Assembly (NCBI GenBank): GCA_026702755.1
Contig: JAPPBX010000104.1
Coordinates: 1-59,867 of the forward strand
Reading direction: 5' to 3'
Source: Candidatus Poribacteria bacterium
GTDB lineage: Bacteria > Poribacteria > WGA-4E > WGA-3G
Length of the DNA: 59,867 nucleotides
A program made the translations under genes and the position numbers. The notes beneath the pieces are model-generated. The model made no database searches and was not told the DNA's origin. It was given only the letters and a program-made list of their open reading frames with translations. Below are positions 53,503 through 58,369 of the stretch, piece by piece. The number at the start of each line of letters is the position of its first letter. Within the stretch, counting starts at the first letter, position 1.

Positions 53503-55041
53503 ATGGAACCTTTCAACAACAAAATCACACTCAATCTTGACCGGAACACAGAAGCCAATGTTAAAGGGTTTATCGCGCCGATTGAATACACCCAATACAA
53601 CTTCCATGTAGAGTGGGAGGCATTGGCAAATCTGCAAGTCGCTGAACCAGAAAAGCAACATGCCGCATCCATTTTTCAGGCATTTCTTCCATCGGAACCG
53701 GTTTCGGTGGGTGATTGCTGGCAAATTGAGGCGGGTGTTTTGGAATTACTCAGGCAACTTAATCCGAAACCGAGATTGGATTTGGATGTCAATAACGGAG
53801 ATTCGTATGGCTCGTGGGCATGTCTACGTGCTTGCAACGATAAATTCGCCGACATCACCTTTCGCATCCATGCGGAATTTGTCATAGAAGGGGGGAGGTT
53901 CACACCTTCCCAGTTTGCTGGTCATCTCGTTATTGACCGAATCAAAGAAGAAATCGCATTCTTTCAGATGCATGTCCCTAAAGGGACACTGAATTTCGAT
54001 GCTTATCGGAACACAATCGGATCCGAGATCGGCTATTGTTCTCAAATGGAACTCTGCACAGGGACACCACCTCACGATGTCGAATTCATCACATCAATCA
54101 CACAAGAAGAAGCCGAACACGCACTGATATCGTGTTTCTACAAGGTTCAGCACATTAACTGGGTCCCGCTGGAGGAGGCGTTGGAGATGGCACCGGCACA
54201 GCAGAAACCGATCCACGCGGTCACATTAGATGGACCGCTCTTCGATGAGTCCTGCTGAGCGAGTGGCAAAGGTCTGAGGGCAGGTGTCCTCTCAAGAGAC
54301 GAAATTATTGAATTTTTGAACGAGCATTTCATTAACACATGGGTCCCCCACTCTGAATTAGGACGTGTCCGTCGTTTGCGGGAACCGATTGCCAAAAGAC
54401 GCGAACGCGAAGGCAAGCCGTTTGATACAACCCACGCTTTGGCACAAGCCATCATGAACGGATGGAAAACCGGCTCAAGAAAAGGGTCGCCGGTGGATTC
54501 CTTCGTTATATCACCCGAATTTGAACTGATGGGTAAACAACAGTTCAATGAACTCGCAAGGGATAATACCTCTCCAGCAAAATATTATCACGCATTCCTC
54601 AGGGAAGCCTTGAAAGGAAAACAGCCCGGATTGGGAAACATTGTTCTTACCCGTGAACACCCTGTAGAGGAAGTGCTGGACGTTTTTCGGACACCAACTG
54701 TCGGTTATTTAGATTACACGGTTGTCGTGGTTGATGTCACGTCTTTTGAAAACGGCGGGACACTCACCATTGATATTAAAATCGGTAGGGGTGGTGGTGA
54801 GGGTGAGTTTTATCTATTTGACGAGGATGGCGAACTTTCCATAGATGAAGAAGAACCGAAAGATGCACTTACTGGGACGTGGGGTGAACCGGGAGATACA
54901 CTACAGCTCACACACCGTTTTGACCGAGGGCAACGTTTTAAGTTAGGTGCTTCAGGATATTGGGACGAAGGCGAAATGTGTACCAACGCTTTTCAAGCAA
55001 GAATCTCTGTAGAGCCAGCAGAAAAACCCGAATCAATGTAG
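53503..55041 (+). CDS. Putative selenoprotein, tandem paralogue 1 (UGA at codon 252)
   Basis: 512 residues if UGA 54256-54258 is read as selenocysteine. Conventional reading gives a 251-residue ORF ending at ESC, then a second ORF from TTG 54316 that lacks a ribosome-binding site; the frame is open between them. Residues 1-205 are an N-terminal domain of unknown family with a conserved CWQIE Cys. About 206-290 reads INWVPLEEALEMA, KPIHAVTLDGPLFDESC-U-ASGK and FLNEHFINTWV, the layout of a thioredoxin_7-like domain with Cys-Sec at the active site. The C-terminal part (about 290-512) ends in a beta-rich domain with THRFDRGQRFKLGASG. ATG 53503 is chosen because it aligns with paralogue 2; ATG 53497 is also possible. 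The start is two bases after guaB. See also 54275-54294. Confidence 0.72.
54275..54294 (+). promoter_or_regulatory. Candidate bacterial SECIS hairpin, paralogue 1
   Basis: UGAGGG pairs with CCUCUCA (one bulged U) around the loop CAGGUGU. The loop begins 22 bases after UGA 54256-54258, within the range used by bacterial SECIS elements, and contains GGU as in the E. coli fdhF element. Folding was done by eye. Confidence 0.5.
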
Positions 55042-55167
55042 TATTTGCAAGGCTTCATTGATACAATATGATTTACATAAGTGCATCCAAAAATGTGTAT
55101 AAGCGAATCATTGCCTCCTTCTAATAGCAATGGTATTTTATACGAAAAAGGAAGTTCCTAACGAAAA

Positions 55168-56730
55168 ATGAAAACTTTCAACAACAAAATTGCACTTAAT
55201 CTTGACCGTGATGCACAAGTGTCTGTCACAGGCTTCATCGCACCGATTGAATATACCCAGCGCAACTACCACGTGGATTGGGACGAATTAGCAAACTTTC
55301 GGGTTGCTGAACCCGAAAAGCAATATCCTGCCTCCGTTTTTCAAGCATTTTTGCCACAAGAACCGGTCTCTGTGGGTGAATGCTGGCAAATTGAAGAAGA
55401 AGGGGCGTTAACACTGCTGAGGCAACTCAGTCCAAACCCACAATTGGAGTTGAAAATTGGTGGGGAGGATTCTTACGGTTTATGGGCATTTCTACGCGCT
55501 TACAACAATGAGTTTGCTGAGATTCTGTTCCGTATCCATGCGGAATTCGTTTTAGAAAAAGGCTGGTTTGCACCATCGCAGTTTGCTGGACATTTGATTA
55601 TCGACCAGAACGAAAAGAAAGTTGCCTCCCTCAAGATGCACGTTCCGGCTGCCACACTAAACTTTGATGTACGTTGGAAAATTAGAGATGGACTCCGCGG
55701 AGCGGACATCGGTTTTTGTCCGCAAATGGAACTCTGTGCAGGCACACAAGATGTTTTGCAAGATGCCAAATTCACAGAAGCGATCACCCAAGAGGAAGCA
55801 TTGCAAGCACTGATGTTACGTTTTTACAAGTCAGCACAAATTAACTGGGTACTGCTGGAGGAAGCGTTGGAGATGGCACCCGCACAACAGAAACCAATTC
55901 ATGCCATCTCGATAAGTGGGCCGCTCTTCGACGAATCATGCTGAGGGAGTGGCAAGACCCTGAGGGCAGGTGCTCTCTCTGACGATCAGAACATTGAATT
56001 CCTGAACGAAAATTTCATCAACACTTGGGTAACGAATGCTGAATTAGGGCGTAAACATAGTCTGCGAGAACCGATTGCCAAAAGACGCGAACGAGAGGGA
56101 AAAACGTTTGACACAAGCCATCCGTTGGCACAAGCCATTATAAAGGGGTGGAAGACCGGATCAAAGAAAGGTTCACCCGTGGATTGTTTCGTCATCTCAC
56201 CAGAGTTTGAATTGATGGGCAGACTGCTTGTCAATGAATTCTTCGACTACAATTGGAATAAATTTAAACTCCGAGATGAGGAAAGTTACCTTATATTTCT
56301 CAAGGAAGCTTTAGACGGAAAGCAGCCCGGGTTGGGTAATATTACTTTGAACAGTGAGGTGTCTTCTCAGGAGGTCATGGATGTTTTCCGAACACCGACG
56401 GTTGGTTATAAGGATTACACAGTCGTTGTAATTGATACAAGGGCGTTTGAAAATGGTGGTACGCTAACCGTTGATATTGAAACCGGTAGAGCCGACGCAG
56501 AAGGGCACTTCTATTTGGTTGATGGTGACGACGACCTCCCTACAACAGAAAGAGTGACTAAATACATGGTACTTGCGATGAAGTGGTTGGAACCCGATGA
56601 AACAGGGCAACTCACGCATCGTTTTGACCGAGGTCAGTTTTTTAAGTTGGGTGCTACCGGGTGTTACGGTAGGAGTGAGAAAGGCAGTACCAACGCTTTT
56701 AAGGCAAAAATTTCTGTAGTGGAGAATTGA
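55168..56730 (+). CDS. Putative selenoprotein, tandem paralogue 2 (UGA at codon 259)
   Basis: 520 residues with UGA 55942-55944 read as Sec. The two halves are in the same frame with no other stop. The second half has no ATG until far downstream: its conserved start region (FLNENFINTWVTNAELGR, about 55996) has neither a start codon of the usual kind nor a ribosome-binding site, so a separate gene would lose conserved sequence. The thioredoxin-like block reads INWVLLEEALEMA, KPIHAISISGPLFDESC-U-GSGK. The N-terminal half has Cys in VGECWQIE and in GFCPQMELCAGT. The start is ATG 55168, with AAAAAGGAAG upstream. It follows paralogue 1 by 126 bases. Confidence 0.72.
55962..55977 (+). promoter_or_regulatory. 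Candidate bacterial SECIS hairpin, paralogue 2
   Basis: GAGGGC pairs with GCUCUC (six pairs, one G-U) around the tetraloop AGGU, starting 23 bases after the UGA. It is the clearest of the three hairpins. Confidence 0.55.
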
Positions 56731-56731
56731 A

Positions 56732-58369
56732 ATGTGTATTTTATCAGACAAAATCACGCTCAATCTTAATGGGGACACAGAAGTCTCTGTCAAAGGCTTC
56801 ATCGCGCCGATCGAATACACGCAATACAACTTCCACGTGAAGTGGGACGAATTGGCGAACTTTCGGGTCGCTGAACCAAAAAAGCAGCATCCCACATCCG
56901 TTTTTCAAGCGTTTCTCCCATCAGAAGCGGCTTCGGTCGGTGGATGCTGGCAGATTCAAGCAGAAGGCGCGCTAACGTTGCTAAGGCAACTTCACCCGAA
57001 CCCGAGCTTGGATTTGCACATCAATAATGGAGATTCTTTTGGTTTGTGGTCATGTCTGCGTGCTTACAATAACGAATTTGCCGAGATTCTGTTCCGTATT
57101 CACGCGGAATTCGTCATGGAAAATGGGTGGTTTACGCCTTCACAATTTACTGGACACTTGGTTATTGACCGAATCCGAGAGAAAGTTGTGTCCTTCAGGA
57201 TGTACGTACCTGAAACGACACTGAACTTTGACGCGGGTTGGAAAGCACCGGCGCACCCGGGTGGCGCAGCGGAAATCGGCTTTTGCCCGCGAATAGAACT
57301 TGCTGCTGGCACACAACCTACTGATGTCGAATTCACCGCGTCAATCACGGAAGAAGAAGCCGAACGCGCGCTCGTATCGTGTTTCTATGAGTTTCAGCAA
57401 ATTAACTGGGTATCGCTGGAGGAAGCGTTAGAGATGGCACCCGCGCAAGGGAAACCAATCCATGTCATCTCAGTGGATGGACCGCTCTTTGACGAGGGGT
57501 GCTGAGGGAGTGGTAAAATCCTGAGGGCAGTTGAGCTCTCTGAAGATCGAATCATAGAATTTTTGAACGAAAACTTTATCAACACGTGGGTCCCCAACGC
57601 GGAGTTAGGACGAACGCCAAGTTTACGAGAACCGATTGCAAGGCGACGCGAACGCGAAGGTAAGACCTTCGACACAAGCCATCCCTTAGCACAAGCAATT
57701 ATCAAAACCTGGAAAAAGGGTTCACCAGTGGATTGTTTGGTTATCTCACCGGAGTTTGAAGCGATGGGTGGCATAGACTACAATATATTTCTCGACAACA
57801 TGACGGAACCAGACCACGCCGCTTATATGTTCCTTGACAAACTGACGGAGTCTGATGACCATACCGAACCTTACCTACTATTTCTCAGGGAGTCCTTGGA
57901 AGGAAAACGTCCCGGGTTGGGTGATCTCATCCTTACGCCGGAGCAACCCTCAAAGGAGGTCGTAGATACTTTTTATACCCCGATGCTCGCACATCAGGAT
58001 TACACTGTTGTCTACATTGATGCCACGGCGTTTGAAGTTGGTGGCACACTCACTGCCAACATCCAAGTCGGGAGAGACAATGGAATAGGGATTTTCCATC
58101 TCCTCGACGGAGACAAAAAACTCCCGACGGAAAAAGTGCCTGATGGCATTGATCCTGAAGCATGGAACAGCCAAGAAAGCGATGAATATAAGAAGGCACT
58201 TGGCGCACTTACCAGAGTCTGGGGGATATTCCCCGGTGAATCTGGACAAATTACATATCAGTTCGATCGTGGTCAACGCTTTAAACTATGTGTGACTGGA
58301 GACCAATGGAGTGAAATAGGCGATATAAACGCTTTCCACGCAAAAATTTCTGTGGAAGCGGCAGACTGA
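56732..58369 (+). CDS. Putative selenoprotein, tandem paralogue 3 (UGA at codon 258)
   Basis: 545 residues with UGA 57503-57505 read as Sec. The context here is GPLFDEGC-U-GSGK, so the local motif Gly-Cys-Sec-Gly equals the redox tetrapeptide of animal thioredoxin reductases. INWVSLEEALEMA precedes it, and IEFLNENFINTWV follows. The N-terminal domain aligns with paralogues 1 and 2 (VGGCWQIQ); the C-terminal half carries an insertion (about residues 346-372) and a longer acidic loop before YQFDRGQRFKLCVTG. ATG 56732 follows GGAGAATTGA and begins one base after the paralogue 2 stop, so the genes are co-transcribed. Confidence 0.72.
57523..57540 (+). promoter_or_regulatory. Candidate bacterial SECIS hairpin, paralogue 3
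   Basis: GAGGGC pairs with GCUCUC around the loop AGUUGA, 23 bases after the UGA. The stem is identical to paralogue 2 although the loop and the encoded residues differ, which suggests the stem is kept for itself. Confidence 0.5.

Follow-up and report, generated by a model that had tools for sequence, protein, structure and literature searches.

Three tandem genes of a Candidatus Poribacteria bacterium with an in-frame UGA codon as probable bacterial homologues of selenoprotein N

Why are three neighboring genes each interrupted by a UGA at the same place, and conserved on both sides of it? This question is raised by positions 53503-58369 of contig JAPPBX010000104.1 from a Candidatus Poribacteria bacterium (assembly GCA_026702755.1; the whole stretch of 59,867 nucleotides is referred to as the window). 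Six open reading frames (ORFs) in this region become three proteins once TGA is translated as a residue (Table 1). The TGA directly follows a Cys codon (TGC) in all three copies and is followed by the residues A/G-S-G-K-x-L-R-A; over the full length across the TGA, copy 1 shares 65% identity with copy 2 and 63% with copy 3. A preliminary description had reported the three genes, their product sizes and the conserved residues, and had proposed a new family of selenocysteine-containing redox proteins. Translation confirmed the arrangement and the sizes, and the conserved residues recur in the family alignment. Our analysis indicates that the genes very probably encode bacterial homologues of selenoprotein N (SELENON/SEPN1), in which UGA would be decoded as selenocysteine (Sec) via a bacterial Sec insertion sequence (bSECIS), yielding a redox protein with a vicinal Cys-Sec pair.

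The in-frame TGA after Cys is a trait of the whole family, far beyond chance. At 213 distinct family sites across Poribacteria the homologous column holds TGA in 209 cases, GGC in two, GGA in one and TCA in one, and in a smaller earlier set TGA was present at 188 of 190 sites. TAA or TAG was never seen among the 213 sites. The true stops of the same family genes are mixed (TAA 78, TGA 70, TAG 31; n = 179), so an internal stop would not always be TGA. Reassignment of UGA throughout the genome was considered as well and was rejected, because UGA also ends these same genes (70 of 179). The Sec motif in the family reads SCU, ACU or GCU followed by G or A; the homologues do not stop at this column, and the residues right after the UGA are conserved like those before it. 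Comparison of synonymous and non-synonymous change, which the preliminary description had proposed, gave ratios (dN/dS) over 13 pairs of 0.12-0.35 upstream and 0.09-0.27 downstream of the UGA, indicating purifying selection on either half.

A second constraint is seen at the RNA level. Codons +6 to +11 after the UGA are almost frozen at synonymous positions (Arg is encoded by AGG or AGA only, Ala by GCA, Gly by GGT, Leu by CTC), whereas in many codons beyond +11 these positions vary freely. The constrained stretch has the hairpin consensus GAGRNC-[AGKU]-GNYCUC, located 23 nt 3' of the UGA. Counting two registers, all six pairs are formed in 142 of 148 distinct sequences; when the 3' arms were dealt randomly (1000 trials), this number averaged 121 and never exceeded 129. 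Two stem pairs covary (GG/UC, AG/CU and GA/UC). Loop (AGGU/AGUU or AGUUGA), stem (6 bp) and spacing (23 nt) match the published bSECIS model, 98% of the 42-nt stretches lie at or below the bSECIS energy limit of -7.5, and a folding test against synonymous shuffles gave a mean z of about -1.9. A scan of the region with Rfam yielded nothing convincing. As judged from the alignment, the codons just 3' of the UGA fold into a hairpin with compensated pairs, in agreement with the bacterial SECIS model. A register shifted by +2 has all six pairs in 21 of the 148 sequences; where codon +10 is Glu GAG, the hairpin is moved by two bases, its loop is AGUUGA and the six pairs are retained.

Genes for Sec insertion, which the preliminary description had suggested looking for, are all present in the genome. 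Because selA, selB, selD and the tRNA-Sec gene were found, Sec insertion at the UGA is strongly supported at the level of sequence, and the earlier proposal that Sec is read at this codon with the help of a downstream hairpin is very probably right. The selD gene encodes a selenoprotein as well (CAGUASK), and its UGA may likewise be followed by a hairpin.

To which known proteins is the family related? A profile of the family was compared by hhalign with a working copy of the human SELENON sequence (residues 290-590), giving a probability of 99.9%, an E-value of 3e-36 and 34% identity over 250 columns reaching the human C-terminus; copy 2 alone matched the same sequence in blastp with an E-value of 1e-32. 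The alignment spans an N-terminal beta domain (FRIHAEF...QF.GH...LN.D) in addition to the thioredoxin part, and since this domain before the Sec domain is also similar, the likeness is more than a shared fold. In 43 bacterial members, R291, G315, C461 and R469 are invariant and H293 and N340 nearly so, while the position of human R466 is Lys. The residues R291, H293, G315, N340 and R469 conserved in the bacterial family are mutated in patients; W453S, N340I, H293R and R469Q/W are patient variants. The working copy of the human sequence ends exactly at residue 590, its residues R291, H389, U462 and R466 agree with published variants (PMC8967691), and c.943G>A (codon 315) fits Gly315. The Sec of SELENON sits in an SCUG motif (PMC12839072, PMC8967691), with which the SCUG of the bacterial Sec context, GPLFDESCUGSGKTLR, coincides. 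The aligned sequences identify the family as a bacterial branch of selenoprotein N, homologous in the middle of the N-terminal half and in the Sec domain, and the claim of a new selenoprotein family was not supported, the family being homologous to SELENON/SEPN1 of animals.

The structure was predicted for copy 2. Foldseek searches with the full AlphaFold2 model returned weak matches to the beta domains only, and the Sec domain was therefore modeled separately. On its own it matched DsbH/DUF255, thioredoxins, the UAS domain of UBX domain protein 7, AGR3 and ERp19 (E-values 1e-4 to 3e-3), and it is predicted to be thioredoxin-like, of the DUF255/AGR/UAS type. In the model, Cys-Sec follows the first strand and precedes the next helix, the position of CXXC in thioredoxins. 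Human SELENON has no equivalent of the C-terminal beta-sandwich, which comprises about 125 residues; some members (L094, L102, L058, L079 and others) have a second beta-sandwich, and others end soon after the Sec domain. No signal peptide was found in the window copies. A simple test detected a signal-like start in 24 of 161 full-length family members (about 15%), and several copies of the genome studied here (L013, L014, L015, L016 and L017) carry such an N-terminal segment, so that the family seems to be active in more than one compartment.

Table 1. Positions of the genes, codons, hairpins and domains discussed in the text. Positions without a prefix refer to the window; C10, C86 and C96 are other contigs of the same genome (G000). 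pLDDT, predicted local distance difference test.
Feature	Position	Strand	Details
SELENON-like selenoprotein gene, copy 1	53503..55041	+	512 residues including one Sec, stop TAG; frame open through a single TGA; homologues share the TGA
SELENON-like selenoprotein gene, copy 2	55168..56730	+	520 residues, stop TGA; AlphaFold2 model with mean pLDDT 87.9
SELENON-like selenoprotein gene, copy 3	56732..58369	+	545 residues, stop TGA
Probable Sec codon UGA, copy 1	54256..54258	+	context SCUASGK, conserved column
Probable Sec codon UGA, copy 2	55942..55944	+	context SCUGSGK
Probable Sec codon UGA, copy 3	57503..57505	+	context GCUGSGK
bSECIS-type apical hairpin, copy 1	54276..54291	+	6-bp stem, loop AGGU, 23 nt after UGA; synonymous constraint, paired bases, published bSECIS model
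bSECIS-type apical hairpin, copy 2	55962..55977	+	6-bp stem, loop AGGU; synonymous constraint, paired bases
bSECIS-type apical hairpin, copy 3	57523..57540	+	alternative register, loop AGUUGA; single-sequence fold, register count
Predicted thioredoxin-like Sec domain, copy 2	55843..56337	+	residues 226-390; domain model pLDDT 87.2; Foldseek matches
Predicted C-terminal beta-sandwich domain, copy 2	56353..56727	+	about residues 396-520; model secondary structure; SELENON alignment ends before the domain
selA	C10:701-2059		598 bits
selB	C86:3666-5561		351 bits
tRNA-Sec	C86:5684-5773		78 bits; about 120 bases downstream of selB
selD (L141)	C96:159939-160862		356 bits; own in-frame TGA at the usual SelD position

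Following established bSECIS biology, SelB carrying Sec-tRNA would bind the hairpin and insert Sec at the UGA, which would result in a single chain of 512-545 residues. The vicinal Cys-Sec pair could then cycle between the selenol/thiol and the selenenylsulfide state and, as has been proposed for SELENON, reduce or isomerize disulfides in client proteins. Lacking a signal peptide, the window copies would be active in the cytosol, and the members with signal-like N-termini outside of it. A thiol/selenol redox role, as suggested in the preliminary description, appears likely.

Other explanations of the locus have to be weighed against this reading. The UGA might be decoded by programmed readthrough as an ordinary amino acid (e.g. 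Trp or Cys) without selenium: the data show readthrough and not the identity of the inserted residue, and the residue in this column is Gly or Ser in four copies. We consider this very unlikely, given the complete Sec machinery, the hairpin of the bSECIS type at the correct distance, the homology to SELENON with Sec in the same column, and the fact that no copy has Trp there. Two separate genes, the first ending at the UGA and the second starting by re-initiation, are the outcome to be expected from standard annotation, and copies 1 and 3 have a TTG 20 codons further on. The preliminary description had pointed out that the second halves lack a plausible ribosome-binding site and that copy 2 has no usual start codon near the conserved beginning. 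ATG, GTG and TTG are absent from the 19 codons 3' of the TGA in all three copies and from the 50 codons checked in copy 2, for which a downstream ORF is listed only from 56125. Re-initiation is also at odds with the strong protein-level conservation directly 3' of the UGA, with a column that uses TGA alone, and with four homologues in which a sense codon joins both parts in a single frame; we regard it as extremely improbable. The likeness to SELENON could finally reflect the thioredoxin fold alone, the family then being an unrelated new one. The comparison is based on a working copy of the human sequence, and the library searches showed no link to SELENON, a SELENON model or structure not being found there; yet the alignment covers 250 residues including the N-terminal beta domain, and the residues mutated in patients coincide, which makes this explanation highly improbable.

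Several observations weigh against decoding as Sec in a SELENON homologue. Sec as the inserted residue is read from sequence evidence, and the only checks on the human sequence used here were its length and the agreement with variant positions in the literature. Scans of the window proteins and 43 relatives with Pfam and NCBIfam, and sequence and profile searches of the PDB, returned no relative of the family. In contrast to SELENON, a type II membrane protein of the endoplasmic reticulum, the window copies start without a hydrophobic segment that could serve as membrane anchor, and they lack an EF-hand, for which no Pfam match was obtained in the 43 family members; in animal SELENON the EF-hand lies outside the compared part. 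As for the hairpin, random dealing of the 3' arms leaves the kinship among the sequences in place, and the minimum-energy folds of the three single junctions were not significant in comparison to dinucleotide shuffles. Homologues with Cys at the Sec column, which the preliminary description had suggested searching for, were not found at the 213 sites, and Gly (three) and Ser (one) in the copies without TGA mean that some copies may do without the selenol. Homologues with Cys in place of Sec are not obligatory, since SELENON of algae is almost exclusively Sec-containing.

Sec has been replaced in the four copies without TGA. In one related group (L014 at C102:41684-43288 in the genome studied here, L136 and L137) the Sec codon is replaced by Gly (GGC or GGA) and the Cys is retained. 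All three have TGT instead of TGC before the site, and two of the three have lost the GG of the hairpin loop (CAACTG). To judge from these changes, Sec was lost naturally in the Gly copies, and the SECIS, no longer needed as a recoding signal, is decaying. In the copy with Ser (TCA; L079:3426) the hairpin is still intact, suggesting that Sec was lost recently there.

Beyond the three genes described before, the family reaches about 14 loci in this genome of 5.84 Mb (three on contig C104, four on C17, three on C102 and one each on C124, C12, C63 and C122), and all but one have the TGA at the same place. It was found in 65 of 85 Poribacteria genomes and in 7 of 22 genera, all within one order. 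A scan of about 85,000 species yielded 67 loci, all in Poribacteria; it used N-terminal patterns of the window subfamily and leaves room for members in other phyla. The search with the Sec-domain profile covered Poribacteria, and plasmids and viral contigs contained no relative at the sensitivity used. In the Sec-domain tree, copies 1 and 3 cluster with copies of other species and not with their neighbors in the window. Several relatives also have the flanking genes (leuD, IMPDH and a polysaccharide deacetylase) next to family members, so the array probably arose long ago. Synonymous divergence (dS) between copy 3 and the loci L062 and L069 drops from about 0.7 in the upstream half to 0.09-0.13 in the downstream half, a contrast that suggests gene conversion between array copies.

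Sponges host Poribacteria. They also have a SelN of their own (PMC3473315). Animal SELENON might descend from a bacterial gene of the Poribacterial type, the recoding hairpin (SRE) directly after the animal UGA being a remnant of the bacterial SECIS; we regard this tentative idea as rather unlikely. The reverse transfer, in which Poribacteria would have captured a sponge gene, gained a bSECIS and expanded it to more than 12 copies, would be equally unusual.

Features that look new are the occurrence of SELENON in bacteria together with a bacterial SECIS, its roughly 14 copies in a single genome, the lack of an EF-hand and the additional beta domain at the C-terminus. Our literature search found no paper on Poribacterial selenoproteins or on a link between Poribacteria and SEPN1. 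A bacterial SELENON homologue may have been mentioned in other literature, and priority is not certain. SELENON is a human muscle disease gene; to our knowledge its enzymatic reaction is still unsettled, and sequence searches of the PDB turned up no solved relative. A large bacterial branch with a bSECIS provides natural variants that could serve for Sec expression in Escherichia coli, structure determination and assays. More than 200 sequences indicate which SELENON residues are essential, and with neither EF-hand nor membrane anchor the family presents the redox core apart from the calcium-sensing part. By encoding Sec in thirteen copies within one genome, a single gene family would make a strikingly large investment in selenium. 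Standard annotation would split each gene in two, and deposited Poribacteria genomes therefore probably carry the family with wrong annotation.

With SELENON of animals and some algae the family shares the Sec in SCUG directly after Cys, the homology, which extends from the FRIHAEF block to the human C-terminus and includes the thioredoxin-like Sec domain, and a hairpin right after the UGA (the SRE in animals). It differs in its SECIS, which lies within the reading frame and not in the 3' untranslated region, in the extra C-terminal beta-sandwich, and in its copy number, one SELENON per animal being listed in PMC3473315. Insertion of Sec via a bacterial SECIS would be common to this family and to UGSC-motif and other prokaryotic selenoproteins, catalogued in 2026 as 119 families (PMC13188914); a search of the catalogue text for the name SELENON found no entry called so. 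DsbH/DUF255 (Thioredox_DsbH), AGR2/AGR3/ERp19 and UAS-domain proteins share the predicted fold of the Sec domain, but identity in the best matches is 13-17% and the N-terminal domain lies outside the match. These proteins have a CXXC-type motif or no redox motif, not a vicinal C-U. The vicinal Cys-Sec-Gly also recalls the GCUG of mammalian thioredoxin reductase, where it forms the C-terminal tail of a flavoenzyme, and copy 3 has precisely GCUG; the Sec of the bacterial family is instead predicted at the start of a helix within a thioredoxin-like domain. The resemblance of SCUG to GCUG has been remarked before (PMC12839072).

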